64,000 nt of DNA, taken from contig JANCYW010000007.1 in the NCBI GenBank assembly GCA_026184775.1, forward strand, positions 372,001 to 436,000. Reading direction: 5' to 3'. Positions 8,612 through 24,665 of the stretch are shown here, piece after piece. Source of the DNA: Cyanidium caldarium (lineage: Eukaryota > Rhodophyta > Bangiophyceae > Cyanidiales > Cyanidiaceae). The notes below the pieces were generated by a model, which saw nothing but the letters and a program-made list of their open reading frames with translations, searched no databases and had not been told where the DNA came from. The position numbers and the translations under genes were made by a program. The stretch's first letter is position 1. The number at the start of each line of letters is the position of its first letter.

Positions 8612-9544
8612 ATGGCCACCTCTCTGCCCTCTCGCGTGCGACAAGTGTCTCAGGTGGCGGAGCAGGCATATCAGAGGCTGGATCAGGCGCTGGGGATGTT
8701 GGAGAAGCGGCTGTACGCGGCGGAGAGGCGTGTGGAGGTGGTGGGCAGGGTCACCAAACGCTACCGGAAATATGGCCACCGCGACAGCCCGATGAAACGC
8801 TTGTGGCGGATATTTGTGGCAGACAAAAGCCCGGCGAAAGCGCGCCAGAGTGGCGACCGGAGCGGCCGGTCGGGCAAGTCGCGGCCGTCTGGCGCCCAGC
8901 CGCCCAGCGCACCAACTGCGACGACGGCAGCGACGACCACAGATGGTGGGGCACGAGATGTGGTGCCGCGGCTGTCGACTGGTGCCCAGCCGGAGATCAG
9001 CATGCCCACCAGAGTGTCGTTACCGTTTCGAGACCTGCCACCGGCATCGCCCACAACCGGCGTGCGCCTGTTCCGGTGGTCGGAGGTGCTCGGCGCGTCC
9101 GAGGAACGTGGGGAAGAGGGAGAATCGGAGCAGCAAGGGACAAGGGGGCAGGCGAGTAGTGGAGAGCAAGATCTCCAAGCGGACGGGGCGACGGCATCGG
9201 TCGAGATGCCGGACATCGAACACATCCTCCAGAATGCGCCGCCAGCGCCGGCGCTCGCATCGGAAGAGGAGCAGACGGCACCACCGACGCCGCAACGTGC
9301 CTCATCGGAGAGGCGCGCCGACGCGGACACCCGGGCCATTTTCGAACAGACACCGCGTCGCAATGTGGATGCGGCGCTGGCGTTTCTGGAGAGCCGGCGG
9401 CGGCAGACACGCGGAGTAGAGGGTGGGAGGGTGGATATGAAGGCAGTCGCCGAGGTGGCGGATGAGGGGGTTGCGCCGCACGCGGACAAGATTGTGCGAC
9501 AGCCGGCGTTTCTGGCTGCGGGCAAGGGGCGATTCCGTAGATGA
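8612..9544 (+). CDS. Uncharacterised basic protein
   Basis: I do not recognise this 310-aa protein. The N-terminal 60 residues form a likely amphipathic helix rich in Gln, Ala and Arg (around QVAEQAYQRLDQALGMLEKRL), followed by a very basic patch (VTKRYRKYG). The middle is low-complexity, rich in Ser, Pro, Thr and Ala. The C-terminal third has two helical segments, one around MPDIEHILQ and one around DAALAFLESRRRQ, and ends with a Lys/Arg-rich tail. There are no membrane segments or cysteine motifs. An in-frame ATG at 8489 would extend it by 41 residues. It is kept as a gene because it fills the space between the transporter and the helicase in one long frame with sensible compositional domains. 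It converges with the helicase gene across 76 bp. Confidence 0.55.
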   Translation: MATSLPSRVRQVSQVAEQAYQRLDQALGMLEKRLYAAERRVEVVGRVTKRYRKYGHRDSPMKRLWRIFVADKSPAKARQSGDRSGRSGKSRPSGAQPPSAPTATTAATTTDGGARDVVPRLSTGAQPEISMPTRVSLPFRDLPPASPTTGVRLFRWSEVLGASEERGEEGESEQQGTRGQASSGEQDLQADGATASVEMPDIEHILQNAPPAPALASEEEQTAPPTPQRASSERRADADTRAIFEQTPRRNVDAALAFLESRRRQTRGVEGGRVDMKAVAEVADEGVAPHADKIVRQPAFLAAGKGRFRR

Positions 9545-9620
9545 TCGGATGAAACGTCTCGGAGAGGCATGCCGCTGCCAAGGATTACGGAACAACCAAG
9601 TTCATGCCAGCCTTTTGCTC

Positions 9621-12600
9621 TTAAGAAAGTTCTCCCTGCGGCACCAACTTCTTGCCGACATCGTCGCCGAAGAAGACGACCGATACCAAACCGGTCTTGC
9701 GCGGCCTGGAAACGATCACACCTTTCCCGTACTGCTCGTGATGCACCACGCGGCCAACGCTCATCGACGACGGTCGGGGCCCAGCAGACGACGACGACGA
9801 CGACGACGACTTCAGATAGGACGACGAGCGTTTTCCATACTTCCCACCCCAATTCCCACGGTACTCGCTGGCGCGTTGAAAGTACGGCGGTGCGTTGCCA
9901 CGGCCGCCGGACGCCTTGTACGGGCTGCGACTCGACGATGTCGCCTCCGCCGCATCCACCCGCCGCAGAAACGCGCTCAGCATACCGTCCAGCTTGGGTG
10001 AGCGGCGCGCCCAATCGTGCGACCGGGCGATCTCCCGCATCCACTGCTTCGCCTGGCGGCGCTGCAACAGCTCGGTCGGCACGGACATCAGGAATGCCGA
10101 CAGCGGACGCAGCGGCCGTCCGCCGCGAAAGCGCTGCATCTCGAACAACGCCCGGTCCTCCTTATCGTCGCCAGTGCTTAACGGCAGGCCGTCCCAGGTG
10201 ATGAACAAAAACGACTTGGCGCGGGTCACGCCCACGTACAACAGCCGCCGTTCCTCGTCCATGCGGTCCGGCTCGTCGAGGCACCGAAAGTGCGGCAGGG
10301 TGCCGTCCTCCGCGCCGGCGATACATACCACCGCAAACTCCAATCCCTTGCTGGCGTGCAGCGTCATCAGCGACAGACGCCCTTGCCATCCCTCGCCGTC
10401 GGGCTGTTGCGACAGGTACTCCTCCTCCGAGCGCGACACCAGCGCCACCTCCTCCAGATATAGCTGCAACACCTCTTGCAGCGTCTGGGCGTCGCCGCCG
10501 ACGGTGTCCTCGAATTTGGTGATCGCCTGCAGCAGCGCCTGAATGTTCTCCAGGCGCTCGCGATGCACGTCATGGGCGCTGCGCAGTGCCGCATTGCCGG
10601 TCGACTGCGACACCGTCTTCAGATGCTCGCGGTAACCCACGTCGTCCAGCATCTGGCTCACCACGTGCGTCAGCGTGGCGACCGCCTCGCCACCGGGCGC
10701 CTGTCGTTTCCGCTGCAACAGCGCGCGCCACCCACAGTACTGGCCGTAAAACTGCAGGTACGCCGTCAGCTGCCGATTGTTCAGGGCGCTATCCGCCAGA
10801 CACACCTCGCCGCGCTGCAGCAGCTGCGCCACCGGGGCACTGGGCGGTAGCTGCTCTGCCGCCAGCCCGGCCTCGGTGGCGATGGCGCTGTCGCTTGCCA
10901 AATGCGCCAGCAGTTCGAGCGCCCGCATCGGACTCAGATGCAGCTGGTGTGCCCACTCCAACAGCCGGTTCACCGACACGTCGCCCAGACCGCGCGGCGG
11001 CGTGTTGATCACCCGCTCGAAATTCACCACGTCGTCCACGTTGCCCAGCAGTCGCAGGTACGCCAGCGTGTCCTTGATCTCCAGACGTTCGTAAAAGCGC
11101 ATGCCGCCCAGGATGCGGTACGGGATGCCGGCGCGCACGCACTCCTCCTCGATACCGCGGCTGCGGCTGTTGGCGCGATACATGACCGCCATGTCATCCC
11201 ACGAGATGCCGTACTCCTCCACGAGGTACTGCGCCATGGTCACCGCAAACATGCCCTCCGCTCGCGAGTCCGGGCAGTGCACCACCGCTGGTAGCTGCCC
11301 TTGGGACCAATGCGTCTTCATCTGCTTCTCCGGCGCCAGCCGCTTCGCGTCCTGCTCGATGATGTGTTGCGCCAACCGCACGATCGGCTCGGTGCTGCGG
11401 TAATTCAGCTCCAGGAAAAACACCTGACAGTCGGGCAGTTCGTCGCGGATGCGCACAAACTGGTGCAAATCGGCGCCGCGCCACCCGTAAATGCTCTGAT
11501 CAGCGTCACCGACCATGAACACCGGCGAGACCAGCGCACCGCTACGCACGTCGGTCGACGCCAACCGCACAAAATCGTACTGAAAGCGATTGCTGTCCTG
11601 CGACTCGTCGACCAGAATGTAGCGCCATTTGCGCTGCAGCGCCACCCGTACCGACGGACACTGCTCCAGCAAGTTGACGCACTCCAACAGCAGGTCGTCA
11701 AAGTCGAGCGCGTTGGCCTCGCGCATGCGCAGCTGGTACGCCTCCATGATCGCACGCACCCTCCTCTCATAGTCCTCTATGGCAGGGTCCTCCAGCGAGC
11801 TGAACGGATTCGGCGCGTCGGTCTTGAGTTTGGAGACGGTTATGCGCACCGCCGACGGTTTCATTACCGTCGACTCCAGGTGAAACTCCTGCTCCATGAT
11901 GAGCGCGATGAGCTTCTCGCTGTCGGAGGTGTCGTAGATCACGAAATCGCTCGGCAGTCCCATCTGGTGGCCATACAGCCGCAACACGTGCGCGCAAGTG
12001 GAGTGAAAGGTGCCGATGCGCAGCGATGCCAGCTGCTGCTCGGAGGCGTCGTCGCCGCCCAGGCCGAGCTGCTGCTGCTGCAGCAGCATCAGCACCCGTG
12101 ACTTCATCTCGTTGGCCGCCTTGTTGGTGAACGTCACCGCCAGAACTTGCCTCGGCGCCACGCCGTGCGCTGCGATGAGATAGGCGATGCGGTAGGTGAG
12201 CACGCGGGTCTTGCCCGAACCGGGTCCAGCGAACACCAGAATGGGCGCCTCCGGCGACGCGGTGACCACCGCTAGCTGCTCCTCGTTGAGTTGACCATGC
12301 AGCCAGTCGGGCACTTGATCGTCGGACGTTGCCTGCGCCTGAAGCGATAGCGGCTGCGCTGCGGGCGACGGTTTGGATTCCGACGCCGTTGGCGGCGGCG
12401 GCAGCTCCGGTTTGACGAATTTGGCCGCGCGCGAGCCGAGCTGACCAGACGTGCGGGCCGCCAGCTTGAGCGCCGATCGCGAGCACGAAGCTGCTACTGT
12501 CTGGCTGCGGTCGCTCTTTCGCGCGGGCATCGCTCGCTTCAGCGCGAAACCGAGCAGCGGCGGCAGCGAGAAAGCCAAAGCAGCCGTGAAGACGCCCTTG

Positions 12601-12857
12601 CGCTCACGAAGAGGTGCTCTCGAGCTCAACGCTCTGGTGCCTTCAGCGATCTGTCTTCGCATCGGCCGCTGCCAAAGTCTCAATTTCCCGATGGCTTCCT
12701 CGGCACCGCACAGGTTTGCCTTTGCAAGCGGGTGCACCCTGGTGTGAAGCTCTGTCGGTGAACGCTGTGCTGACCAGCGCGCCTCCACCGCCGTGTCGCG
12801 CACCGACCCAAAGTTCGACTGCGAGCTGCTCGGGCGCGCGCGTTCAGAAAACGCCAC
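9621..12857 (-). CDS. PcrA/UvrD/Rep-type superfamily 1 DNA helicase
   Basis: This is a 3'-to-5' ATP-dependent DNA helicase of bacterial type, probably serving organelle DNA. The 1078-aa product has all SF1A motifs: Q-motif region (LNEEQLAVVTA), Walker A AGPGSGKT with its lysine at residue 216, the TFTNKAANEMKSRV motif Ia, the VDESQDSN Walker B, GDADQSIYGWRGA, LNYRST, the LMTLHASKGLEFAVV motif V and EERRLLYVGVTRAK motif VI. It ends with a PcrA/UvrD-like Tudor-type C-terminal domain (VGRVVHHEQYGKGVIV onward) preceded by a Ser run. The first ~150 residues are basic, Ala/Ser-rich and non-conserved, which fits a transit sequence; alternative ATGs exist, for example at the MPARKSDRS segment. The cyanobacterial-like architecture suggests a plastid (or mitochondrial) repair helicase. 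Targeting is inference. Confidence 0.92.
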   Translation of the reverse strand: MAFSERARPSSSQSNFGSVRDTAVEARWSAQRSPTELHTRVHPLAKANLCGAEEAIGKLRLWQRPMRRQIAEGTRALSSRAPLRERKGVFTAALAFSLPPLLGFALKRAMPARKSDRSQTVAASCSRSALKLAARTSGQLGSRAAKFVKPELPPPPTASESKPSPAAQPLSLQAQATSDDQVPDWLHGQLNEEQLAVVTASPEAPILVFAGPGSGKTRVLTYRIAYLIAAHGVAPRQVLAVTFTNKAANEMKSRVLMLLQQQQLGLGGDDASEQQLASLRIGTFHSTCAHVLRLYGHQMGLPSDFVIYDTSDSEKLIALIMEQEFHLESTVMKPSAVRITVSKLKTDAPNPFSSLEDPAIEDYERRVRAIMEAYQLRMREANALDFDDLLLECVNLLEQCPSVRVALQRKWRYILVDESQDSNRFQYDFVRLASTDVRSGALVSPVFMVGDADQSIYGWRGADLHQFVRIRDELPDCQVFFLELNYRSTEPIVRLAQHIIEQDAKRLAPEKQMKTHWSQGQLPAVVHCPDSRAEGMFAVTMAQYLVEEYGISWDDMAVMYRANSRSRGIEEECVRAGIPYRILGGMRFYERLEIKDTLAYLRLLGNVDDVVNFERVINTPPRGLGDVSVNRLLEWAHQLHLSPMRALELLAHLASDSAIATEAGLAAEQLPPSAPVAQLLQRGEVCLADSALNNRQLTAYLQFYGQYCGWRALLQRKRQAPGGEAVATLTHVVSQMLDDVGYREHLKTVSQSTGNAALRSAHDVHRERLENIQALLQAITKFEDTVGGDAQTLQEVLQLYLEEVALVSRSEEEYLSQQPDGEGWQGRLSLMTLHASKGLEFAVVCIAGAEDGTLPHFRCLDEPDRMDEERRLLYVGVTRAKSFLFITWDGLPLSTGDDKEDRALFEMQRFRGGRPLRPLSAFLMSVPTELLQRRQAKQWMREIARSHDWARRSPKLDGMLSAFLRRVDAAEATSSSRSPYKASGGRGNAPPYFQRASEYRGNWGGKYGKRSSSYLKSSSSSSSSAGPRPSSMSVGRVVHHEQYGKGVIVSRPRKTGLVSVVFFGDDVGKKLVPQGELS
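9785..9808. repeat. (GAC)n trinucleotide run inside the helicase gene
   Basis: This short perfect GAC/GTC run encodes a Ser tract just before the C-terminal Tudor-like domain of the helicase. Similar GAC/GTC runs occur in the WDR6 gene (near 30,730) and before the glucosidase gene. Confidence 0.8.
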
Positions 12858-13118
12858 GGCTTCGGTCCGCGGACTGGCTGAACGCGGCGGCGGGCTAGAG
12901 CGATGCGGAGGGGAAAAGGAGAAGTGGTTGAGGGAGGCGGGCGATACTGGCTGAGGAGTCGTGGGCGCGGAGGAAGCATCGGTTTATGGGATGGAGAGAG
13001 TGAGGTGGGGCGAGAGGGATCTGGGGAGGAGGACGAGACGGACGCAACACGACGAGCGGAACTCGCTGGACAAGACCCCGAGGAGGGACCTGCGACTCAG
13101 GAGCGACTTGCAGCGGGA

Positions 13119-13862
13119 ATGTCGTTGGCGCTGTCTCGACGCGTGTTACGGGCCTTTCTGGAGGCTCACCGGCGTAAGGCTGGGCCGCTCCGGGCGTTCC
13201 CGAGCGGGCCCGCCGGGGCAGTTCACCAAAACGGTGACGAACGGCTGTGGGGACGGGATGGAAGTCAGGATCCCGTTGGCGTTGCCGTCCGGCAAACCCG
13301 TGAAGAAGACATCAACGCCACCGATGGTCTGGAGCGCTCCGCGTGCCCTTTTCGGATGCCGCCGCCGACAACTCCTCTGGCTGCAGAAGCGCACACTGAC
13401 GCCGCCGCCGCGTCTTCGGACGCGTGGTCGTTCACGGCTGTCGCTGGACTGGCCGAAACGCTGCGCACCGTCGGGCGTCTCCTCCAAGATAACCCTCTGT
13501 GCGGTGAGCAGCTGCGAGGATGGCGAAAGCGATACCTGCTGTTGTACGTGGTGGTGGAATACCACCTGTTTTACGCGGTGCTGCTGGCCGCCATCGGCGC
13601 GGCATTGGCGGTGGCCAGTGCCGTCGGCTCATGGCTAGAGACGTCCCGGTGGGCCCATGCGCTCATAGGCATCGGTACCGTCTGGGGCCTCTTGCGCCTC
13701 TTCGAGTTGCATTCGGCGGTTCGCCGCTCGGCCATCGCCTGCCTGCCCGCCGAGTGGCAGCGCGTCCTGCACCAGGAAGAGAGCGGTTGTCGGAGGCCGT
13801 CTCCGTATGGAGGTGACGCCCGAACTTGTCAAGGGCTCAATCGGCCGCGGTACCGCGGATAG
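13119..13862 (+). CDS. Putative small membrane protein of unknown function
   Basis: I do not recognise this gene. From this ATG it encodes 247 aa: a hydrophilic, low-complexity N-terminal half, then a region that looks like real protein, GWRKRYLLLYVVVEYHLF followed by an Ala/Val/Leu-rich helix. A second hydrophobic helix (HALIGIGTVWGLLRLFEL) and an amphipathic tail follow. Two membrane-spanning helices joined by a short loop are predicted. The frame is open from 12903, so the start is uncertain; an internal Met at MPPPTTPL is another option. Its last codons (PRYRG, stop) run into the AsnRS fragment on the other strand, overlapping it by about 34 bp. The gene was probably the convergent 3' neighbour of AsnRS before the Fanzor element arrived. 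Confidence 0.5.
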   Translation: MSLALSRRVLRAFLEAHRRKAGPLRAFPSGPAGAVHQNGDERLWGRDGSQDPVGVAVRQTREEDINATDGLERSACPFRMPPPTTPLAAEAHTDAAAASSDAWSFTAVAGLAETLRTVGRLLQDNPLCGEQLRGWRKRYLLLYVVVEYHLFYAVLLAAIGAALAVASAVGSWLETSRWAHALIGIGTVWGLLRLFELHSAVRRSAIACLPAEWQRVLHQEESGCRRPSPYGGDARTCQGLNRPRYRG

Positions 13863-14140
13863 AGGCAGACGTCGCGTACGTGCGCGACGCCGAGCATGTA
13901 GCAGCAGAACCGCTCCAACCCCAGACCGTAGCCACCGTGGGGGCAGCTGCCAAACTTGCGCTGGTCCGTGTACCAGTAGTAGGCGCTGGCGTCCATCTTT
14001 TCCCGCTCATACGCCTTCACCAGTTCGTCGTGGTCCCACATGCGCATGCTGCCGCCGACGATCTCGCCGACGCCCGGCATGAGCAGGTCGACGCTCTCGG
14101 TGAGGTCGGGATCGTCGGCACACGGTTGCATGTAGAACGA
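13829..14140 (-). pseudogene. Detached 3' fragment of asparaginyl-tRNA synthetase
   Basis: This fragment encodes the last ~104 residues of AsnRS (from SFYMQPCADD through the class II motif 3 GGYGLGLERF) and its own stop codon. It has no catalytic core or start of its own. Positions 13845-14140 are identical to 17930-18225 of the complete gene. The final codons differ: this copy reads GGC CGA TTG AGC CCT TGA, encoding G-R-L-S-P-stop. The frame happens to stay open upstream into the Fanzor element (to an ATG at 14398), which would make a chimeric ORF of doubtful meaning. It is most simply the original end of the gene, displaced when the element inserted. Confidence 0.85.
13845..14140. repeat. 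296-bp direct repeat, distal copy (AsnRS 3' end)
   Basis: I compared this stretch base by base with 17930-18225 and saw no mismatch. It begins with the 14-bp perfect palindrome CCGCGGTACCGCGG (13845-13858). It ends where the sequence switches abruptly from AsnRS coding sequence to unrelated sequence. The two copies are in the same orientation, with a 4085-bp offset. Confidence 0.95.
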
Positions 14141-14709
14141 CGATGCCGAGGTCACGGAGCCGCGCGAAGGCGTCTGAAACGCGTGACGTAGCGGCGGGCG
14201 TCCCAGGCTCCACGTGCAAAAAGCGCCGCAGACTTGGGCAAGGGCGCACGGTAGGCGGCTCGGCGTTGGGGACGCGCCGGGCCTTTGGAGAGAGGCTCCC
14301 AGGTGGGCTCTGCTGAGGGTGTGGGGGGTGAACGCGATGTGCAACACTGAAAAGACCACCGCAACAAGCGATTCCGGCTCGTTGGCGACAGGGACCATTG
14401 GAGGCGCTCGCGCCTACTCTCCGTGCTCTCCGCGACGTGTACCCTGCGGGTGGTAACCAGCACAGGCGAACCGTGAAGGTTTTCCTCTGAGACTTACACC
14501 GACTTGTATGACCACGATTGCCGTGCATCAGTGTCTCCGACAAGTCCGAAAAGTCTCATCTCCGTCGTACACGTTGCACCTTGCACCTCGCGGCGTTGGA
14601 GGTGCCGCCCTGCGGCAGCTCGTCGCAGCGCAGTGGAGGTCGTCTGTTTTCTCTTCGCCTTGTGGCAACCCGTCGCGGACCATGCGCACCGCGTAACTCG
14701 CTTCTTCCC
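14141..14709 (+). promoter_or_regulatory. Leader region of the Fanzor element
   Basis: This stretch runs from the left border to the chosen Fanzor start. No second gene is convincing. It contains an imperfect inverted repeat at 14489-14557 and probably the Fanzor promoter and 5' UTR. Confidence 0.4.
14489..14557. repeat. Imperfect inverted repeat upstream of Fanzor
   Basis: GAGACTT (14489-14495) and GACTTGT (14501-14507) face ACAAGTC (14540-14546) and AAGTCTC (14551-14557), so RNA or DNA here could form a two-part stem. It encloses an in-frame ATG at 14518, which is one reason to prefer the later start. Confidence 0.6.
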
Positions 14710-17700
14710 ATGCCACCTCAAACCAGAGGCGGGCACGTTACCCGCGAGGAGATGTGGGAGAGGCTGCGGGGCACCGCCAAGGGTAGAAGATTCTACACCA
14801 CGCTCTCAGAGCAGGAGCGCAAGGAGTGGCCCATCATGCTGCTCCTCGGGTACTGCAAGAAGCTGAGGTTGCTCACTCCGCTGGAGGAGTTTGAGACGAC
14901 GCCCAAAGTCTACACCACGGTCGCCTCTTACCTGGACAAGTTTCTGCCGCCGCCGCTGAACACCTTCAGGGTCGTCTGGGCCATCTGCTCGCTGGTGTTC
15001 CTACTGAGCCTGCTGTTCCACCGCGGGTCCGTTATACTGAATCTGCGGGCGATGCTGGAGCTGGGCGGCATGAAGCGGCGGCCGTCGGAGGCGTTTACGC
15101 TGGAGGGCGCGGAACGTGAATACGGCTCGTTCGTGGACTATCTACAAATCGACAAACCAACCACAGCAGAGGCGAAGCAAGCATTCCTACCGGAGTTGTG
15201 GCCCACCCGGTGCACGCCGCGCTCCTGGAGACTGCGCGACCTGTTCGGCAATCGCCTGTTGGGATGGGCGGTGCCGCCGTTGCCGTGGGCGCCAGCTCTC
15301 GTGCACCTATTCGGCATGGGCATCACGTGGTGGGGTCTGATGGCGAGGACCGGATGGCACCAGGCGATGATCCTTTTGTACACCGACTACACCGGCGATC
15401 TCAAGGTCATGGTGACGCAGCGTCTGCTGGAACGCACCTACGATTTCCTGAACCGTAACCCCACGTGGAGCGATGCGCAGTGCAAGGCGGGCAAGAGCAC
15501 CCTGTTCAGCGACATCTGCCGCACCGACCTGCCGTCCGTGCTGACGCCGCTACAACGTCTGATGATACTCGCCTTGCGCCGCATTTTGCGGGGCGGTGGT
15601 GCGAACGCCGACGATGGCAGAGCGCTGGAGCACCCCACCGGCTTTCGCATTCCGTTCTCGCGCGAGGCGCTGCTGTTGCATCTGTTCCTCACCGCGCAGC
15701 CGTTGCTGAAGACGCCGGAGGAGCAGCGGCGCCGGGAAGAGCGGGAGGAACGGGAGCGGCAGCGTCGGGCCGAGGCGGAGGCACGTCGGACGGAGCATCC
15801 GCCGAGGCGTCGGCGTCGGCGCCGGCAAGCAGCAGCGAGTGGCGAAATGGACAGGCCGCAGGAGACTGGACGCGACTACCAGAACAAGCACGGACGCTCG
15901 CTGTACCTGCCGTTTTCGGAACGCAATCGCAAATTTGTGCGCATCGATGCGGTCATCTGGAAGTGCCTCATGGCGATCTGCGGCATCGTGGTGAACGTGC
16001 CCGCCGAGGCGCTGCAGCCGGCCGGCCGCTCGCCGATGCTGAGCGACTGCATGGGCTACAGCGCCAAGGTGTGGAACCGGCAGCAGCGCCGGGCGTGGCA
16101 CACGCAGGTGACGCAGCTGAAGCGCCGCATGCAGCGAGGCGACCAGCGTCCGCGCACGCGGCAGCGCCTGAAATCGCTGCGGCGTTACGGGCCGGTGCTG
16201 TTCTCAGCGGTCACCGGGCCGTTCCTGTTTCAGTCGTTTCTGACCGATGGGGTGAGTGTGCGCATCCTGCTTTTCAAGTTGCGCAACCTGGCGGCGTACG
16301 TGCAGGATCCGCCGCGCACACGGGCGCAGGTGGACGCCATTCTGGGACGTGGGCAGTGGCGTCCCCTCACTCCGGCACAGCGTCGGGCGCTGCAGGCGCA
16401 GCGACAGGCGGAGGTCGAGCAGTTGCGGCAGGAACGAGAGAATGGACCCATGCCGGTGGGTTGCGGCCTCGACCCGGGTATGGCCAAGATCTACACGGTG
16501 TCACGCCGGGACACGCGAGATCCGTCGGAGCGCCCGCGCACCCTGACGTACACCCGCAGGCGGCACTACCACGACATCCACGTGGACGTGTTCAGTCAGT
16601 GGCACCAGCGGCGCCTGCGGAACAACGGGCGCGTACAGTCGGTGCAGGACAAGATCGCCGAGGTGGGCGGTTTCCGGCACCTGAACATCGACAAGTTCTG
16701 TGCGGCGATGTGCGTATTGAACAACAACCGGGACCTCTGGGATACAGAGTATCTGTATGCCGAAGAGCGGGCGTACTGGCGCATGGACCGCTTCCGTGCC
16801 AAGCAGTCGGCGCTAGACCGCGCCTGCAACCGCATATTCCGCTTCTGCACCGACAGCAAGTGTTCGGGTGGTGATTTGGTGATCGTGAGCGTGGGCGACG
16901 CGAAGTTTGGGCGCACGCCCAAGGGCAGCAGGTCGGTGCCGACCTCCAAGTTTACGCGCACGCTGTTGCGAGTGCACGCGGAGTGGGTGGCTCGCGGCTG
17001 GGACATCCGGCTGCAGTTTGTGGATGAGTATCGCACGACGAAGTGTTGTTGGCGGTGCGGTCGGGAGACCGTTCCGATGATGGTGTGCAGGGAGGACGAC
17101 AGGACCGGTCGATCACACCATGCCCCGAGCATGCGTTTACGCGTATGTCCCGACTGCTCTACGCAGGCACTTGATCAGAACTCGCGTGGTGGGTTGGTTG
17201 ACAGAGACGTGAACGCATCTCGGCACGGCGCCGGTCTCTCTTTTTGCACACACTACGAAGGGTCTCTGACGGCACGTCCCGACTGTCTGAATCGTGCACA
17301 TGTGGAGCAGCAGCGCCGCGAGGCGGAAGCTGTTGCGAATGCGAATGCCCACCGGCGCCGGAATGCGCGGGGCGGAGGTGCGGCTGGTGGCACGACGACT
17401 GGCGCTGATGATGGTGCGACGGCGCCGGCCTGGAGGTGGCGTATGCGGGCGCGTCGGGGTGGCAATCGCGACGGCATGCACCGCGGTGGTGATGCTGCCG
17501 CGGGTGCGGAACGCGGAACTCGCGCCAATGTGAGGTTGCCGCGACGCCGCACGGAATGTGAGATGAGACAAGCTTTGACAGGCAGGGATGGCCGTCCGGC
17601 CCGGCGCGCAGTGGAGATCGTCGGCGCGCTGGCTCGGGTTCGTGCCCGCACTTGGCGCCTCCGCCGTTGCACACCGCGTGCGACATGGGAGCGGGGGACC

Positions 17701-17841
17701 GGGACAGCAGGGACAGAGTGGATAGGGGAAGGATTCGGGGGAACAGGGGCAGAGGGAACAGACGGAGACCCAGGAGCCTTTCACACACGTGGTAGAGCGA
17801 GACCGGCGGCAGATGCGCGAACGCACACGGCGTCCTCGTGA
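14710..17841 (+). CDS. Fanzor: eukaryotic TnpB/OrfB-type RNA-guided RuvC nuclease
   Basis: Fanzors are eukaryotic relatives of IS605 TnpB that cut DNA guided by an RNA made from the 3' side of their own element. This 1043-aa product has a large helical N-terminal half (REC/WED-like, with basic linkers). A RuvC-I motif CGLDPGMAKIYTVSRR follows with Asp588. VIVSVGDAKFG lies at the usual RuvC-II strand without the standard Glu. FVDEYRTTKCCWRCGRE carries Glu773 immediately before the zinc ribbon, and CPDC (813/816) completes the ribbon. VDRDVNASRH supplies the last catalytic Asp833. The Glu moved next to the zinc ribbon is typical of Fanzors rather than bacterial TnpB. The ~200-residue C-terminal tail is Arg/Gly-rich and low in complexity and may overlap RNA-coding sequence. 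The frame is open from 14518, and the ATG at 14710 gives the more protein-like start. All catalytic residues are present, so it looks potentially active. Confidence 0.9.
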   Translation: MPPQTRGGHVTREEMWERLRGTAKGRRFYTTLSEQERKEWPIMLLLGYCKKLRLLTPLEEFETTPKVYTTVASYLDKFLPPPLNTFRVVWAICSLVFLLSLLFHRGSVILNLRAMLELGGMKRRPSEAFTLEGAEREYGSFVDYLQIDKPTTAEAKQAFLPELWPTRCTPRSWRLRDLFGNRLLGWAVPPLPWAPALVHLFGMGITWWGLMARTGWHQAMILLYTDYTGDLKVMVTQRLLERTYDFLNRNPTWSDAQCKAGKSTLFSDICRTDLPSVLTPLQRLMILALRRILRGGGANADDGRALEHPTGFRIPFSREALLLHLFLTAQPLLKTPEEQRRREEREERERQRRAEAEARRTEHPPRRRRRRRQAAASGEMDRPQETGRDYQNKHGRSLYLPFSERNRKFVRIDAVIWKCLMAICGIVVNVPAEALQPAGRSPMLSDCMGYSAKVWNRQQRRAWHTQVTQLKRRMQRGDQRPRTRQRLKSLRRYGPVLFSAVTGPFLFQSFLTDGVSVRILLFKLRNLAAYVQDPPRTRAQVDAILGRGQWRPLTPAQRRALQAQRQAEVEQLRQERENGPMPVGCGLDPGMAKIYTVSRRDTRDPSERPRTLTYTRRRHYHDIHVDVFSQWHQRRLRNNGRVQSVQDKIAEVGGFRHLNIDKFCAAMCVLNNNRDLWDTEYLYAEERAYWRMDRFRAKQSALDRACNRIFRFCTDSKCSGGDLVIVSVGDAKFGRTPKGSRSVPTSKFTRTLLRVHAEWVARGWDIRLQFVDEYRTTKCCWRCGRETVPMMVCREDDRTGRSHHAPSMRLRVCPDCSTQALDQNSRGGLVDRDVNASRHGAGLSFCTHYEGSLTARPDCLNRAHVEQQRREAEAVANANAHRRRNARGGGAAGGTTTGADDGATAPAWRWRMRARRGGNRDGMHRGGDAAAGAERGTRANVRLPRRRTECEMRQALTGRDGRPARRAVEIVGALARVRARTWRLRRCTPRATWERGTGTAGTEWIGEGFGGTGAEGTDGDPGAFHTRGRARPAADARTHTASS

Positions 17842-17929
17842 CTGCGCCCGATTGCACAACATGTAGCGGGTTGGAGACGGATCTGCCCCTGTCATCACTG
17901 TAGCGTGCGGTGCTCACGGCGTTAGCCGT
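17842..17929 (+). ncRNA. Candidate 3' end of the Fanzor guide RNA (scaffold)
   Basis: By analogy with TnpB omega-RNA and Fanzor fRNA, the scaffold should overlap the end of the ORF, end at the right element border and run into the flank as the guide. The border here carries the stem-loop ACGGCGTTAGCCGT (17916-17929: 5-bp stem, 4-nt loop), which abuts the repeat. The guide would then start at 17930, within the antisense of the AsnRS 3' end. The 5' end of such an RNA is not determinable here. This is inference from position and the hairpin. Confidence 0.45.
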
Positions 17930-19485
17930 CCGCGGTACCGCGGATAGAGGCAGACGTCGCGTACGTGCGCGACGCCGAGCATGTAGCAGCAGAACCGCTC
18001 CAACCCCAGACCGTAGCCACCGTGGGGGCAGCTGCCAAACTTGCGCTGGTCCGTGTACCAGTAGTAGGCGCTGGCGTCCATCTTTTCCCGCTCATACGCC
18101 TTCACCAGTTCGTCGTGGTCCCACATGCGCATGCTGCCGCCGACGATCTCGCCGACGCCCGGCATGAGCAGGTCGACGCTCTCGGTGAGGTCGGGATCGT
18201 CGGCACACGGTTGCATGTAGAACGATTTCAGGTAAATTGGAAAGCGACACAGCAAGATCGGCTCGCCGATCATATCGGTCATGCGGCGCTCGGGCGCCTC
18301 GGGAATGTCGTCGCCAAACTCGAACGGCGTCCGGCTCTCCTCGTCCTTGTAGATGCGATGTTGGCGGCAAAACTCGATGGCGTCCGCATAATCCATGCGC
18401 TTGAACGGTCGCTTGGGCGGCGCCGCGTTTGGATTCAGTTCGCGGAACAGCTCCCCGCCGCGGTGAATCACCCGCGCGTACACGTCGCACACCAGCTCCT
18501 CGATGGCCTGCAGCAGCTGTGCGAACGTGATAAACGGCATCTCCGCCTCCAGGTGGTGAAACTCGGCCAGATGCCGCCGGGTGCTACTCTTTTCCGCCCG
18601 GTACGACGGCAGAATGCAGAAACAATCGCCCACCGCCGGTATGGCCGTCTCCAGGTACATCTGGCTGCTCTGCGTGAGGTATGCCTGTTCGCCAAAATAG
18701 TCCAGCGGGAACAGCGTGCTGCCGCCCTCGCACATGGTGTTCACGATAGTGGGCGGGGCCAGCTCCACGTAACCGCGGTCAAAGTAGTGCTCGCGGAAGC
18801 ACTGCGTGATGATGGAGCGCATCTTCAGCACGCTGGACGTGTGCCGGCCGCGGATCACCAGATGGCGATGCGTCAGCAGCACGTCCGGGTTGGACTCGTG
18901 CGTGAGGATCATTTCGATGTCGCGGTGCGACGGCCCGATGATACACCAGTAGTCGGCGTGCAACTCCAGACCGCCTTTGGCGCGCGCGTCCTCGCGCAAC
19001 GTGCCCCACAGGCGTACCGATGCCTCGCGGAACAGGGTGATGGCCTCGACGGTCATGCACAGCTTGTCGGTGAGCACACACTGCAGAAAACCGGTTCCGT
19101 CGCGCAGATCCAAAAACGCCAGCTTCTTGCTCTCGAATCGGATGTTGTGTACCCAGCCCTGCACCAGCACCCGGCGGCCGATCCACTCCGCCGCCTCGCT
19201 CGCGAAGACGTCGCGCAGCTGGCACGACTGCGGCGGCGGCAGTCGCGGATCCAGCTCGATGTGGATCCGTCGGGCCTCTTCCAGTCGTCGTTGTTGTTGC
19301 AGTTCCGCATCGGCTTCCAGTTCGACGGCTTTGGCGGCCTTGCGCTCTGCCAGCGCCGCCAGCTTCTGCATCTTCTTCAGCCGCGCTTTGGGCAGCGCCT
19401 GCCGCTCCTCCTCCGACATGGCCAGGAAGTCTTCCAGCCGAAGGTTGGAAAAGTCGCGCGATGAAGTTTCCGCCTCGTCCGCCAT
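17914..19485 (-). CDS. NARS1: Asparaginyl-tRNA synthetase, cytosolic type
   Basis: This class II synthetase charges tRNA-Asn for cytosolic translation. The 523-aa product has a Lys/Ala/Glu-rich helical N-terminus and an OB-fold anticodon-binding domain (VLVQGWVHNIRFESKKLAFLD). The catalytic core carries class II motif 2 (SYRAEKSSTRRHLAEFHHLE) and motif 3 (GGYGLGLERFCCYMLG), and the typical CLYPRYRGRLTP terminus follows. It is complete. The last codons, GGA CGG CTA ACG CCG TGA, lie across the border of the Fanzor element and differ from the displaced copy at 13829, yet encode nearly the same peptide. Its 3' end now faces the Fanzor gene, with only 72 bp between stops. The 3' UTR must therefore come from the element, and a Fanzor guide RNA reading outward would be antisense to this gene. 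Confidence 0.96.
   Translation of the reverse strand: MADEAETSSRDFSNLRLEDFLAMSEEERQALPKARLKKMQKLAALAERKAAKAVELEADAELQQQRRLEEARRIHIELDPRLPPPQSCQLRDVFASEAAEWIGRRVLVQGWVHNIRFESKKLAFLDLRDGTGFLQCVLTDKLCMTVEAITLFREASVRLWGTLREDARAKGGLELHADYWCIIGPSHRDIEMILTHESNPDVLLTHRHLVIRGRHTSSVLKMRSIITQCFREHYFDRGYVELAPPTIVNTMCEGGSTLFPLDYFGEQAYLTQSSQMYLETAIPAVGDCFCILPSYRAEKSSTRRHLAEFHHLEAEMPFITFAQLLQAIEELVCDVYARVIHRGGELFRELNPNAAPPKRPFKRMDYADAIEFCRQHRIYKDEESRTPFEFGDDIPEAPERRMTDMIGEPILLCRFPIYLKSFYMQPCADDPDLTESVDLLMPGVGEIVGGSMRMWDHDELVKAYEREKMDASAYYWYTDQRKFGSCPHGGYGLGLERFCCYMLGVAHVRDVCLYPRYRGRLTP
17916..17929. repeat. Border hairpin that is also the AsnRS tail
   Basis: ACGGC (17916-17920), GTTA loop, GCCGT (17925-17929). 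The same bases read on the minus strand are the codons for the last AsnRS residues. The displaced original tail near 13829-13844 does not form this stem. Confidence 0.8.
17930..18225. repeat. 296-bp direct repeat, proximal copy (inside intact AsnRS)
   Basis: This is the partner of 13845-14140, with no mismatch seen. It begins with the palindrome CCGCGGTACCGCGG at 17930-17943, directly at the element border, and ends inside the AsnRS coding region with no visible feature there. Confidence 0.95.
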
Positions 19486-19662
19486 GAGCCGCTAGGAGAA
19501 GAGGCGGGAGATGAGGGGCGTCGTCGTCTCGATGCGTAGTCAGGGGCGCCGCGGCAGAGGAGCGCAAACCGCGGAGGTGCCGCGGCAGGGGAACGCGAAT
19601 CCGTCTGACTCGACGTGCGCGACATGCATCCAGGAGTTTGCAGCTACCCGAGGTGCTCGCAT

Positions 19663-20559
19663 TTACAGGTTGGACAAGTTAAAGGCGCTGGCAGTGAGTT
19701 GGGCCGCACTGCGGATGACTCGGTTGCGCCGCAACCGCGCCCAGAGGGTGTCTCGGAGGGACAACTCGGACGACGGCCGATGGCGTCGCCAGTATCGGTA
19801 CAGCAGGAATGCTCCGACGAGGCCCGCAGTGGCATACGCCAGCACATCGGCCGCCATGTCGGGATCATGGCGGAGTCGCTGCATAAGAGCACTCACCGGC
19901 GAATGTCTCGTCGCAGTGCTCGCCGGCGTTGCCTCACCATCGGCTGTGCTATGGGTGTCGGTTGTGTCTCGTTCGATATCCCGTTGCAGATGCATCACCC
20001 GCCTCTGCATCTCGGCAAGCCGTTGCTCGCTGAGCCATTCTGCTGCCGACGCTAGCACGCGCTTCACCTGATCCAGATGGGCGATGCCCCATTCGTGCCG
20101 CCTCGTCGCGTCATCCCCCGGCAACGCGTCTCCCAGCAGCAGACCCTCGATCCACACGTCCAGCACCAACGCCGACACTTGCTCGCGACTCCACTCCATT
20201 GCAATATAATCACGTTGAAGTTGCGGCCAAGCTGCCGCCATCCGCTCGCAGGCGCGTTTCGCAGCACCGCCACTCACCAGCACGCTCAGGCAGCAGCGCA
20301 CCGCCTCCGGCCGGTGCCACGCCAATCCCAACTTGCCAGTCTGCACGTCCGTCGTTAGTGCCGACTCGGCCACGCGCTGCGCCTCCTCCAGTCGGTCCAA
20401 TTCGCACAGCGCCTGCACTTCGACGCCCAGCAGGGCGGTTCTCTCGGCGGCGCTCCTCTCCGCGTTGGATTCCAAGCGACACACGTCCAACGCGTCCGAG
20501 TAGTCGCCCGAGAGCAATAGTCGCCGGGCGTCGTCCAGCATATTGGCTGAATGCTTCAT
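19663..20559 (-). CDS. Putative tail-anchored protein with TPR-like helical domain
   Basis: This 298-aa protein is not firmly recognised. Residues 1-180 are predicted all-helical with TPR-like spacing (ARRLLLSGDYSDALDVC, ALCELDRLEEAQRVAESAL). An Arg/Gln-rich helix and a short polar linker follow. A single hydrophobic segment near the C-terminus (VLAYATAGLVGAFLLYRYW) is followed by a basic luminal or matrix tail. A helical cytosolic domain plus a C-terminal anchor is the layout of peroxisomal PEX26/PEX15/APEM9 proteins and of some mitochondrial outer-membrane proteins. PEX26-like is a guess from topology, not from motifs. It lies between AsnRS and ELP3 on the same strand. Confidence 0.65.
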   Translation of the reverse strand: MKHSANMLDDARRLLLSGDYSDALDVCRLESNAERSAAERTALLGVEVQALCELDRLEEAQRVAESALTTDVQTGKLGLAWHRPEAVRCCLSVLVSGGAAKRACERMAAAWPQLQRDYIAMEWSREQVSALVLDVWIEGLLLGDALPGDDATRRHEWGIAHLDQVKRVLASAAEWLSEQRLAEMQRRVMHLQRDIERDTTDTHSTADGEATPASTATRHSPVSALMQRLRHDPDMAADVLAYATAGLVGAFLLYRYWRRHRPSSELSLRDTLWARLRRNRVIRSAAQLTASAFNLSNL

Positions 20560-20767
20560 GGGTGCAAGCGGCCCGGTTGCCGATCCTCAAGCCGGAACAC
20601 GAATCCGAAACGTGCGGCGTCCGCCCAGGGCGGTCTGCGTGTCGGGATTTTTTCCGCCACCCATCCGACGGGTGACCCGAATGCTTCACCCAGCGCAAGC
20701 ACCTGTCTCCATCCTTATTGACACCCGCGTCCCTTTTCCTAGACAACGCTCATCGCACGCGCTGCCT

Positions 20768-22405
20768 TTACAACTGTTTCACCATGTACGGCCCCTCCAA
20801 CGCGTAGCCCAGCTTGCGGTAATAGCCGCGCGTGCCCACTCCGGAGATGACCGCCACCTTGCGGCTGCCGTGCTCGTCGCGGGCGATGCGCTCGGCCTCC
20901 TCCATGAGCAGCGTGCCAAAGCCGCGGTGCTGAAACAGCGTCGGGTCGCGCTCGTGCACCGGAACCACGGTGCCGTACACGTGCAGCTCCCGCACCATCG
21001 AGCAGTGCGGCTCCAGGGCGCTCGGTTCCGCCGCGGCGCACAGCTCCAACCGGTACGTCTGCTCGGCGGAGAGTCGACGTAATCGCAACAGACCCACCAG
21101 AATGTCCTGCTGCGGATCCTCATACGACAGAAACGTCTCCCAGCCGCCGTTGGCCACATAGTCGCGCCGCACCAGTTCCACCTGCCCCGGCCGCACCGCG
21201 TGGTGGATCTCGCGGATGCCCACTTCTCGCGTGCGCACATCGCGACACGGTAGACCGAGCTCCCGCATGCGCGCCAACACCAGCTCGCGCAGATTGCCAA
21301 ACTGCACGCCGCTGGTCACCAGGGGCATGGGGATGTCGCGCTGCACCCGGTACACCCGCACCCAGGGCGGCACCAGCGACATCAACTCGGCCACGTGATC
21401 CACCAGCTCCAGCGGCGGCATGCTGCGGTACTTGCCGGCGCGCCACAGCTCGTACAGACCGGTGTTAGCCAGCGTGAGCGTCGGATAGATCTTGAGGCCG
21501 TCGGAACGGAACGCCGGGTTGTCAAAAAACTCCCGAAAACACTCCACGTCGCGCTCGCGGTCCATGTCCGGCAGGTTGGGCATCAGATGCGCCACGATCT
21601 TGTAGCCGGCATCTTTGGCCACGTGGAAGCAGTCGGCCACCGCTTGCACCGTGTGTCCGCGGTTGGTCAACACCGCAATGTCCTCGTACACGCTCTGCAC
21701 CCCGATCTCCAGCCGCGTGCAGCCGTACGCCAACATCGCGTCCAGATGCGGCCGCTGACAGTAGTCCGGGCGCGTCTCAATGGTCAGCCCGATGCACTTG
21801 AGGCGCGCGCTGCGCTCGCCGTATCGCACCGCCTCGGCAACACTGGCCGATCCGTGTCCCGACAGCGCATCGTGCAGGTTGCGGATGAACCAGTCGCGAT
21901 AATCGGCTGGCAGGCTCATAAAGGTGCCGCCCTGCAACACAAACTCCACCTTATCGGCGTGATGGCCGAGCTGCTGCAACTGCTCCACCCGCGAACGCAC
22001 CTGCACATACGGGTCGTAGCGAGCGCGTATGGCCCGCATGCTGGTCGGCTCAAAGCCGGTGTACGACTGCGACGAGTAGGGAAAGGCCGAGTCCGGTCCG
22101 CCCGGGCAGTAGATGCACACGCTGCCGGTGGTGTAAATGTGCGGGCAGCGGTGCGGCTTGGACATGACCGCCACGATGACAATACCCGACGAAGATCGCA
22201 CCGGCTTGACGCGCAGTTTCGGCGCCAGAGCGTCTTTGTAGGCTGGCGGCACCGCTGCCAGGATGTCCATCAGCTTGGGCACGCTGGTCAGGCGGTGCCG
22301 CTTGGCCGCCTCATTCTTCAGTCGCTCCAATGACACCGGCCGGTTGTCCTCGTAAGCTTGAATGAGAGACTGGACGATATCGCGCACTGCCCGTGCTTGC
22401 TCCAT
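20768..22405 (-). CDS. ELP3: Elongator complex protein 3 (tRNA uridine-modifying radical SAM/acetyltransferase)
   Basis: Elp3 is the catalytic Elongator subunit. It installs the carboxymethyl group at the C5 of wobble uridines in cytosolic tRNAs. The 545-aa product has the radical SAM cluster motif C87-x9-C97-x2-C100 ([17 protein letters not shown]), the SAM-binding barrel ([33 protein letters not shown]) and a C-terminal GNAT acetyltransferase domain. That domain includes [17 protein letters not shown] and ends [19 protein letters not shown]. Length and domain order match Elp3 from yeast to human. The start at 22405 gives the usual N-terminus; the frame is open to 22588 without family similarity. 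It is divergent from SGF11, about 230 bp between starts, and this gap carries a perfect 10-bp hairpin. Confidence 0.97.
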
Positions 22406-22500
22406 AAGCGGCCTACTCTCACCAACGTGTAACCCGATGGTGTCGTGAGCACCAGGCGCCTGCGAACGTCTCGCGGTGGCGCACGAGACCGGTGTGTTCG

Positions 22501-22528
22501 CTCGGCGGTGGAACTGCACACCGCCGAG
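22501..22528. promoter_or_regulatory. Perfect 10-bp inverted repeat between ELP3 and SGF11
   Basis: CTCGGCGGTG (22501-22510) and CACCGCCGAG (22519-22528) are exact reverse complements separated by 8 bases. It lies in the ELP3/SGF11 divergent spacer and would be in the ELP3 5' UTR if transcription starts upstream. It could be an mRNA hairpin or a palindromic operator. Confidence 0.6.
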
Positions 22529-22634
22529 CCGATTATGTAAACCGGGAAGGGAAGTGGTCACGTTGCCACCACTCGATTGAGAAGACATCCATTAGACTAG
22601 GCTGTTCTGACTCGAGACGGTCGAGCACTGCGCC

Positions 22635-23645
22635 ATGGCACCGCGGAGAAAGACGAGGCGCTCGGGTAGGCGCGGACGACCGCCCGCGTCGCGGGAACCG
22701 ACGGAAGCAGTGGAAGTGGGTTTCCATGGGCCGGACGCCGCCAGCGACTCGGACGAAAACTCGGAAGACAAGAATGAAGTGCTGGCAGAGCAGCCGGCGG
22801 AGGAAGAGAGAGCGCCACCGCCTCTCCCGGTGCGACGACGAGGGCGGCCGCCGCGCGCGGGTGGCCCGGCGACGCGAGACCGACCGCTGCTCCATGCGGA
22901 CGAGCTGCAGCAGCACCGCAACGGCCGGCGCGAGGATCATCCGGACGAGCCGGTAGGGGAGAGTATGGTGGACGAGGAGGCCGTGAAAGGCAAACTGACC
23001 GATATTCTGGCGCGGCTGGATGAAGAGGGGCATGGGGCGCGCGTGGACCCGACGCCCAGCATGTCCGCGCGCTTACACCTGACGCTCGGTGTGTACGGCG
23101 AGCTGCTCGACGCGGCAATGCAGGAGGCGTGTCGGGAGGCGCATCGGGAGGAGATCGTACGCGGATGCATGCAGGACACGGTGTGGGAGCGGCCGCGGGG
23201 GTGTGCCTTGCGCGACATGGCGCCGGCCCCGATGGCGGCCACGGAGAACAAACCGTCCGCCGGTCGCGGCGGTGCCCGCGAGGTGGTGCTCACCTGCTCC
23301 CATTGCAATTCATCGGTGGCAGTGTCGCGATACGCGCCACACTTGGAAAGATGCGTCGGCAAGGGCGGGCGCCAGAGTTCGCGCGCAGCGACGGTACGCC
23401 TGCGGAATCACGCACAGAGCAACGGGCCGCTGCAACGAGTCGATGAAGGTGGCGAGGCACGGGAGGGAGATTGGAGAATGCCCGATAGCAACGGAGACAG
23501 AGAGGCGGCTGAGGAGGAGGAGACATCGAGCGCTGCCAGCGATAACGACGGCGATTTTGAAGAGACGCCGCGGCCGTCAAACGTAACCAAGCGCACGCGA
23601 ACAGCCGCAGTACCGCTGCGCAAGTCGAATCGACCAGCGCGATGA
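22635..23645 (+). CDS. SGF11: SAGA deubiquitinase-module subunit SGF11/ATXN7L3-like
   Basis: SGF11 helps activate the Ubp8/USP22 deubiquitinase, which removes ubiquitin from H2B in the SAGA complex. The diagnostic part is the single zinc finger around residues 215-240: CSHCNSSVAVSRYAPHLERC, with the C-x2-C...H-x3-C spacing, followed by GKGGRQSSR. An upstream helix (YGELLDAAMQEACREAHREE) corresponds to the Sgf11 N-terminal helix that packs on Sgf73/Ubp8. The protein is 336 aa, longer than yeast Sgf11. The N-terminal extension has two AT-hook-like motifs (RRGRPPAS and RRGRPPRAG), and the C-terminal tail is acidic then basic and low in complexity. AT-hooks would allow direct DNA contact; that role is inference. 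It diverges from ELP3. Confidence 0.85.
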   Translation: MAPRRKTRRSGRRGRPPASREPTEAVEVGFHGPDAASDSDENSEDKNEVLAEQPAEEERAPPPLPVRRRGRPPRAGGPATRDRPLLHADELQQHRNGRREDHPDEPVGESMVDEEAVKGKLTDILARLDEEGHGARVDPTPSMSARLHLTLGVYGELLDAAMQEACREAHREEIVRGCMQDTVWERPRGCALRDMAPAPMAATENKPSAGRGGAREVVLTCSHCNSSVAVSRYAPHLERCVGKGGRQSSRAATVRLRNHAQSNGPLQRVDEGGEAREGDWRMPDSNGDREAAEEEETSSAASDNDGDFEETPRPSNVTKRTRTAAVPLRKSNRPAR

Positions 23646-23849
23646 CTCTTGGGGGAATAGGCGGTGTACTGCAGAGGCACGAAAGACGAGCTGTTTATGG
23701 GTGGACATGCTGTGCGGCTCTGTGTGCCCGGTTCGACCGTCGTGTCCGGAGCATTCGGCGCGCGCCCTATTCCCGCACCGTTTCTCTCGTCGTCGTCGCT
23801 TTCTGCACACGCTCCAGCGTGTGATCCCGCGCCCTCCACCCGGAGCTTC

Positions 23850-24665
23850 ATGTTCATCGCGACGAGCAACACCGCGCGGTTTCGCCATCACACTGCGCGG
23901 CACGTGTCGCTTACGGACGTTCACACAGACTCTGCACAGGCACCACTCAGCTGTCACGCTCCGGCAAACCGCGCGGGTGTCCGCCGCGACCGCCGCTTTC
24001 CCGCACTCCGCCTGAGCGCCTCCACGCCTTCCCCCTCCACGCCCTCCTCCCGACTCGACACCGCCCTCCACACCCATCCGAGTGGATTCGAAAGCTGTGC
24101 CTTCCTCTCGTGGAGTGATGTGGAACGCCTCACCATGCTCTTGGCGGATCGGGTGTGGCAAGCGGTGGAGGCGAGCGGCGAGGCGTGCCATCGCTCCGGA
24201 TCGCGCCCGCGCGTCCCGTACGATGTGCTCATGGGCATCACCCGCGGCGGTTTGATACCCTGCGCCCTCCTCTCCCAGCGGTTCGAGCTGCGCAGCATAT
24301 TGACGGCGTCGGTGTTCTTCTACGACGACCGGGGCGAGACGTTTTACGGCCTGACCGAGCCGCGCACGCTCACCTTTCCGGACGCGCAGCTCATCGAGGG
24401 CAAGCGGGTGCTGGTGGTAGACGACGTGTTTGACACCGGGCGGACGGCGCGCGCCGTGCGTACCCGCTGTGAGCGCGCCGGAGCGCGTTCGGTGGATGTA
24501 GCGGTGTTGCATTACAAGCCGGACAACAACCGCTTCGGCGACGCGGAGGCACCCCGTTATTTCGCGCAACAGGTAGCGGGATCGGAGTGGATCGTATACC
24601 CGTGGGAGAATCTGAGTCCGGCGGGCATCGAACGACGACTGGCCAGTCCTGGGCCCGACGCGTAG
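23850..24665 (+). CDS. Type I phosphoribosyltransferase (xanthine/hypoxanthine PRT-like)
   Basis: Type I PRTases transfer ribose 5-phosphate from PRPP to a base, or act as regulators. The 271-aa product has an ~85-residue Ser/Thr/Arg-rich N-terminus, suggestive of a transit peptide. The compact PRTase fold follows: DVLMGITRGGLIPCALLSQ, a flexible-loop region, and the PRPP-binding motif VLVVDDVFDTGRTA. The C-terminal hood contains EWIVYPWE, resembling microbial xanthine/guanine PRTases and yeast Xpt1. The base is not predictable with certainty. The frame is open from 23664, so a longer product is possible. It converges with BRAP2 across 40 bp. Confidence 0.82.
   Translation: MFIATSNTARFRHHTARHVSLTDVHTDSAQAPLSCHAPANRAGVRRDRRFPALRLSASTPSPSTPSSRLDTALHTHPSGFESCAFLSWSDVERLTMLLADRVWQAVEASGEACHRSGSRPRVPYDVLMGITRGGLIPCALLSQRFELRSILTASVFFYDDRGETFYGLTEPRTLTFPDAQLIEGKRVLVVDDVFDTGRTARAVRTRCERAGARSVDVAVLHYKPDNNRFGDAEAPRYFAQQVAGSEWIVYPWENLSPAGIERRLASPGPDA

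Follow-up and report, generated by a model that had tools for sequence, protein, structure and literature searches.

A Fanzor-like element between two copies of a gene end

The stretch of Cyanidium caldarium DNA analysed here, called the window, comprises 64,000 nucleotides (C7:372001-436000, guanine-plus-cytosine content 65.3%) of a genome of 8,787,356 bases in 20 contigs. It contains an element with a Fanzor-like nuclease gene that lies between two copies of the 3' end of AsnRS, the asparaginyl-tRNA synthetase gene. One copy belongs to the working gene, whose product has the Pfam matches AsnRS_N, OB-fold and tRNA-synt_2, and the other, displaced, stands on the far side of the element. Together they form an exact direct repeat (296/296 bases; 300 nt at 98% in a second comparison of the pair) that occurs in only two places in the whole genome, both of them here. 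They enclose an intact Fanzor-like open reading frame (ORF), the right end of the element and a 50-bp spacer (Table 1). This layout, which a preliminary description of the sequence had presented as two identical AsnRS ends around an apparently intact Fanzor, is confirmed.

Table 1. Features of the AsnRS locus, in positions of the window.
Feature	Position	Strand	Basis
Convergent neighbour gene, 319 amino acids, overlapping the displaced AsnRS end	12903..13862	+	ORF; no Pfam match; homologue P0124, 82% identical, on a contig of 154,413 bases
Last bases of the displaced AsnRS tail, probably native, outside the repeat (within GRLSP-stop)	13829..13844	-	Repeat and codon comparison; Ser commonest at its position (41/119)
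Displaced copy, 296 bp of the AsnRS 3' end	13845..14140	-	Exact repeat; two places only in the genome
Upstream part of the insert, without detectable left terminal repeat	14141..14709	.	No inverted match to the right end in 9001-24000; single-copy in the genome
Fanzor-like ORF, 1043 amino acids plus stop	14710..17841	+	Uninterrupted; LDPG, CWRC...CPDC and DRDVNA motifs; PF07282 E 7.1e-4, below cut-off; relatives in the genome
Conserved right end of the element family	17741..17863	+	Profile matches 17741-17850 (E 5.8e-10) and 17809-17863 (E 2.3e-11, model includes the window copy); alignment
50-bp spacer from right end to AsnRS stop	17864..17913	.	Single-copy in the genome; no clear homology to native downstream DNA
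Last bases of the working AsnRS tail outside the repeat (within GRLTP-stop), with another spelling	17914..17929	-	Codon comparison; no match to the terminal-repeat unit profile
Same 296 bp inside the working AsnRS	17930..18225	-	Exact repeat
Working AsnRS gene, 523 amino acids	17914..19485 (with stop)	-	ORF; Pfam; 95% identical to P0001

The two gene ends and their last codons

Beyond the repeat, the displaced copy ends in GGC CGA TTG AGC CCT TGA (GRLSP-stop) and the working gene in GGA CGG CTA ACG CCG TGA (GRLTP-stop). The two tails differ in all five sense codons, at seven bases, and keep the peptide apart from one Ser/Thr exchange, as had been noticed at first sight. Over the 104 codons compared, the differences are confined to these last five sense codons, and all other third positions agree (98/98; five of five codons changed in the tail against 0/98 third positions in the repeat, Fisher p 1.1e-8). 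Because the first two bases of the Gly codon fall inside the repeat, the informative positions of the tail are limited to R, L, P and the stop. So abrupt a change from repeat to tail is hard to attribute to ordinary mutation after a duplication.

The ending itself is nearly invariant. The pattern R-[CIL]-x-P closes 118 of the 119 AsnRS homologues counted, which are the best 120 of 5420 matches minus P0064, excluded beforehand for its 63% coverage. Loss of this ending through an insertion would therefore probably do harm, and a viable insertion has to restore it; the working tail does keep the ending of this essential gene, as the preliminary description had proposed. Counted on both strands, N-R-L-x-P-stop has frame-specific starts at 10 of 307,194 positions in the sequence fetched and at 6 of 127,968 positions in the window, two overlapping sets that both include the AsnRS tails themselves. 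Such an ending is not expected at a given point, and selection on an essential gene would filter for it.

Two further relationships of the tail region were considered and set aside. The 60 bp beyond the two stops show an ungapped identity of 22/60, reached by 5.2% of shuffles, a global alignment score reached by 11% of background windows and a local one reached by 63%; these values are not clear of background, and homology of the two downstream stretches was dropped. By eye, the working tail could plausibly be part of a terminal repeat of the element. The profile of the terminal-repeat unit gives no match there up to an E value of 1000; in simple alignments, the agreement of the tail with four of nine units is matched by only 4-5% of background windows and that with the other five by 10-86%. 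This origin is set aside and not disproved.

The displaced tail as the probable native end

The displaced tail adjoins and overlaps the convergent neighbour gene. A homologue of that neighbour, P0124, lies on a contig of 154,413 bases. The closest AsnRS homologue, P0001, has that source too and a contig of the same length; we infer that this is one contig, on which the neighbourhood is conserved. The position that distinguishes the two tails is occupied by Ser in 41 of the 119 homologues, where it is the commonest residue, and by Thr in three. Among the homologues, P0001 ends in RLIP, P0003 in RLSP, and P0002 and P0004 in RISP. With the neighbour's homologue apparently on the contig of P0001 and with Ser commoner at this position than any other residue, the displaced Ser tail is probably the native one. 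In that case the working tail probably came with the insert, which agrees with the earlier suggestion that the element brought its own version of the tail. It had also been remarked that the Thr version is closer to animal AsnRS endings, which carries little weight at a position that varies so freely. A search for homologues of the Fanzor-like protein, in which 8000 candidates were scored, brought up P0122 of another dataset and, besides it, just the protein of the window itself; the relative with P0001 therefore probably has an empty site with a single tail.

The Fanzor-like protein and the right end

The ORF runs uninterrupted over 14710-17838 and its product of 1043 amino acids carries LDPG at residue 587, CWRC at 780, CPDC at 813 and DRDVNA at 831, which we take to be the RuvC and zinc-finger motifs of proteins of the TnpB kind. 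Two copies in the genome match PF07282, with E values of 7.1e-4 and 8.5e-4 (20.1 and 19.9 bits, cut-off 26.3). NCBIfam gave no TnpB match for the window protein (the copy on C10 scored E 9.5), and sequence searches of the PDB gave no match to Fanzor or TnpB structures. We write Fanzor-like because the name rests on our reading of the motifs and on a profile match below threshold.

The right end is conserved, and its consensus fold is weak (eight pairs, one with a double change; z-score -0.11). A search of it against Rfam gave no credible match, with one hit below threshold (E 0.44). In one fungus, the Fanzor RNA is reported to run 14-15 nt past the conserved region, this extension being the guide (PMC10432273). 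If the guide here likewise started where conservation ends, its 15-20 nt would read the spacer and not the AsnRS tail. We compared nine 18-nt guide candidates with the window: eight have 3-4 mismatches at their best site elsewhere, and the ninth, which lies inside the repeat, matches the displaced copy exactly. These results do not bear out the proposal that the recoding alters the DNA where the element cuts: conservation of the right end gives out at 17850-17863, about 50 bp before the AsnRS stop, a guide beginning at that point would take in the spacer, and the displaced copy still has the native end intact.

The element family in the genome

Ten other places in the genome are related to the Fanzor-like gene, each partial or with internal stops. 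We searched 13 stretches for terminal repeats: these ten, the window and two more found by searching with the right end. By the terminal-repeat model, 11 of the 13 have a right end, window included. Among these, left ends are clear at five (C7:91k, C12, C11, C8, L046), weak at two (L047, C2) and absent at four (the window, C15, C17, C7:3k). Two stretches, C10 and C7:494019, have no credible terminal repeat and stand outside these counts. With several copies in the genome that share their ends, the element belongs to a family of transposable elements. L046 (C2:49396-50003), which is short at about 600 bp, carries the family's left and right terminal repeats, and no similarity to Fanzor was reported for it. 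At the right ends C2:359815-359926, C15:293447-293558, C7:93804-93910 and C11:48576-48657, the terminal-repeat unit occurs twice in tandem.

At the ten loci that have an ORF beyond the right-end repeat, window included, the stop of this ORF lies 5-61 bp from the right end. Given these distances at the other nine, the 50-bp spacer fits a normal insertion into the 3' untranslated region (UTR) of AsnRS. Nine right-end genes have Pfam support (AsnRS, DUF155, SDR-like, PEP carboxylase, TauE, JmjC, ubiquitin-conjugating enzyme, Iso_dh and Rpb2; the right-end ORFs at C8 and C7:3153, which match no Pfam family, are outside this set), and all nine are convergent, their 3' end facing the right end of the element, often with the stop within 60 bp of it. 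A right end that aims at gene 3' ends was rejected as an explanation, because Pfam-supported genes at the left end likewise turn their 3' end towards the element in six of seven cases. The family lies mostly between convergent genes, and survival there could by itself be sufficient to explain the pattern.

The insertion in AsnRS differs from its relatives. It is flanked by a direct duplication of 296 bp, and none of the nine other loci that could be compared has a flanking direct repeat (C10, C7:3153 and C7:494019 fell outside this comparison). A displaced host tail was found at none of seven other copies (C10, C17, L046, L047 and C7:494019 likewise outside). The preliminary description had named other copies inserted without a host-gene tail as evidence against its reading; the seven compared are such copies, decayed though they are, and this speaks against a rescue device shared by the whole family.

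Origin of the locus

We tentatively favour a single insertion of a truncated element through break repair, which carried along a diverged AsnRS end, over a recoded rescue device of the whole family. The observed structure, with its missing left end and its right end about 50 bp before the AsnRS stop, would go back to a break in the native 3' end of AsnRS that was repaired with DNA carrying the Fanzor-like element, without its left end, and flanking DNA (14141-17929 in all). On the far side, the element without left end would have joined AsnRS 296 bp upstream of the tail boundary; the repair would thus have duplicated 296 bp of the native gene and stranded the native tail GRLSP beyond the element. 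On the AsnRS side, the incoming DNA would have been joined in register within the last codons, so that the working gene took over a new tail and the spacer. The source of both would be a diverged AsnRS whose 3' UTR already contained the element; homing introns bring flanking exon sequence with them in a similar way. The break, its cause (the Fanzor-like nuclease or another), the donor and the order of these steps are our reconstruction.

What supports an insertion of this kind is the repeat with its sharp boundary, the in-frame R-L-x-P-stop and a left terminal repeat that is clear at five loci and absent here. The conserved neighbourhood of the displaced tail, the lack of Fanzor homologues other than P0122 among the matches, a spacer of ordinary length and the long duplications around Fanzor1 copies in Chlamydomonas (PMC3627910) speak for it too. 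The in-frame join on the AsnRS side suggests homology with a diverged AsnRS end. Several results weigh against this reconstruction. No donor was found in the genome: the spacer and the upstream part of the insert are single-copy, and the next best AsnRS-like match is 33% identical, with no close paralogue. Searches with AsnRS in genome_contigs and viral_contigs, and with the Fanzor-like protein in viral_contigs, gave no matches. The spacer is unlike the native downstream DNA, so the donor must have been quite diverged, yet the repeat is identical, and the crossover would have to fall exactly at the boundary. The comparison with the AsnRS end of the relative with P0001 was made at the protein level and leaves its codons aside. 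The lack of flanking repeats at the other loci counts on this side too.

The main rival, which we consider unlikely, is a non-homologous insertion with a 296-bp target duplication, whose junction by chance read R-L-T-P-stop and was kept by selection. It gains from the near-invariance of R-[CIL]-x-P (118/119), given which any viable insertion at this point must restore the ending, from a spacer that shows no homology to DNA downstream of AsnRS, and from the long duplications known for Fanzor1 copies (PMC3627910). Its cost is a pattern of about 3 in 100,000 at one exact place, when an insertion slightly downstream would have needed none. Nor does the terminal-repeat unit profile find the tail, though the four of nine units that align at the 4-5% background level soften this point.

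It is rather improbable that the locus is a natural home-and-rescue device, in which an element with an RNA-guided nuclease carries its own recoded AsnRS tail and 3' UTR, so that the carrier works and empty alleles are cut and converted. The layout is the one such a device would have: an essential gene with a respelled tail of equivalent coding (GRLTP for GRLSP), a foreign spacer and an intact nuclease-like ORF directly downstream, and the native tail displaced. Against it, the right end lies about 50 bp before the tail, so that, with the guide start placed as above, the replaced stretch and the target would not overlap. An intact native end persists in the displaced copy; were that end the target, the copy should continue to be cut, and breaks between direct repeats would tend to remove the element. 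The only guide candidate with an exact match elsewhere in the window is the one inside the repeat, which hits this very copy, and the seven other copies compared have no displaced tail.

The preliminary description had offered an old partial tandem duplication of AsnRS as an alternative, with the element inserted later, 296 bp kept identical by gene conversion and the tails left to drift. Gene conversion can hold direct repeats identical, but the fit is poor, with five of five sense codons changed beside 0/98 third positions, and a stranded tail without obvious constraint that still encodes the commonest type of ending; we consider this origin very improbable.

Least probable of all is an assembly error or a chimera of two haplotypes: although the locus is known here from assembled sequence and walled Cyanidiophyceae cells are reported to be diploid (PMC13353863), the 14140/14141 junction has no repeat on its insert side from which a misjoin could arise, the published assembly consists, by its description, of 20 telomere-to-telomere chromosomes obtained from sorted cells (PMC9812998), the gene model P0122 of a second dataset matches 14337-17838 with few differences (ending short of the junction), and the two haplotypes of another strain are reported to differ by 0.093%, far from 7/16.

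Comparison with known systems

Integrases of phages and plasmids offer a parallel in which an inserted element supplies the end of a gene; unlike here, they act as site-specific recombinases on a short identical attachment core. Closer in kind are the Fanzor1 elements CRe-1, CRe-2 and CRe-3 of Chlamydomonas, which keep the right end, often lose the left and have flanking duplications of variable length; direct duplications of 44, 50, 93, 242 and 443 bp surround some copies, most commonly those with 5' truncation (PMC3627910). These duplications follow T-rich sites and, in the excerpts of that report, are not said to take the place of a host gene's coding end, and in the present family, unlike in theirs, the nine other loci compared have no flanking duplication. 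CMe-1A of Cyanidioschyzon merolae resembles our element, by description and not by sequence comparison, as a Fanzor1-encoding element of about 3 kb in a related red alga, and differs in being reported, in the same excerpts, without terminal inverted repeats (PMC3627910). The homing introns of plant cox1 share the co-conversion, in which an element with a nuclease brings along short flanking coding sequence of the donor gene; they differ in being introns that replace cleanly, leave no displaced copy and have DNA-encoded specificity (PMC3192709). The home-and-rescue drive HomeR is likewise aimed at an essential gene's 3' coding end, for which it supplies a re-coded tail and a foreign 3' UTR, but is engineered, with known guide and target (PMC7968924). 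Unlike in HomeR, only the 16 bp beyond the repeat differ here and the intact native end remains.

The locus is an apparently recent and intact example of an essential gene that survived when its coding end was replaced by a eukaryotic element bearing a Fanzor-like nuclease gene. No such case is described in the titles and abstract openings of the open-access literature surveyed. Should the tail derive from another AsnRS, the locus would document that the element moved between alleles or species and that co-conversion took place, which is the trace that Fanzor homing would leave. A second chromosome-level assembly of C. caldarium has been published (PMC13353863), which makes the question directly testable.

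Minor features at the displaced copy

The displaced AsnRS end (13829-14398, minus strand) shares its reading frame with an upstream ORF beginning at 14398, giving 189 amino acids in total, and could be expressed as a fusion. The neighbour gene extends past the displaced AsnRS stop (13790-13862), but P0124, its homologue, has an earlier end. Both copies of the repeat have a perfect 14-nt palindrome right at the repeat boundary (13845-13858 and 17930-17943); it was considered as a break site and is not special, the window having 11 perfect palindromes of this length.

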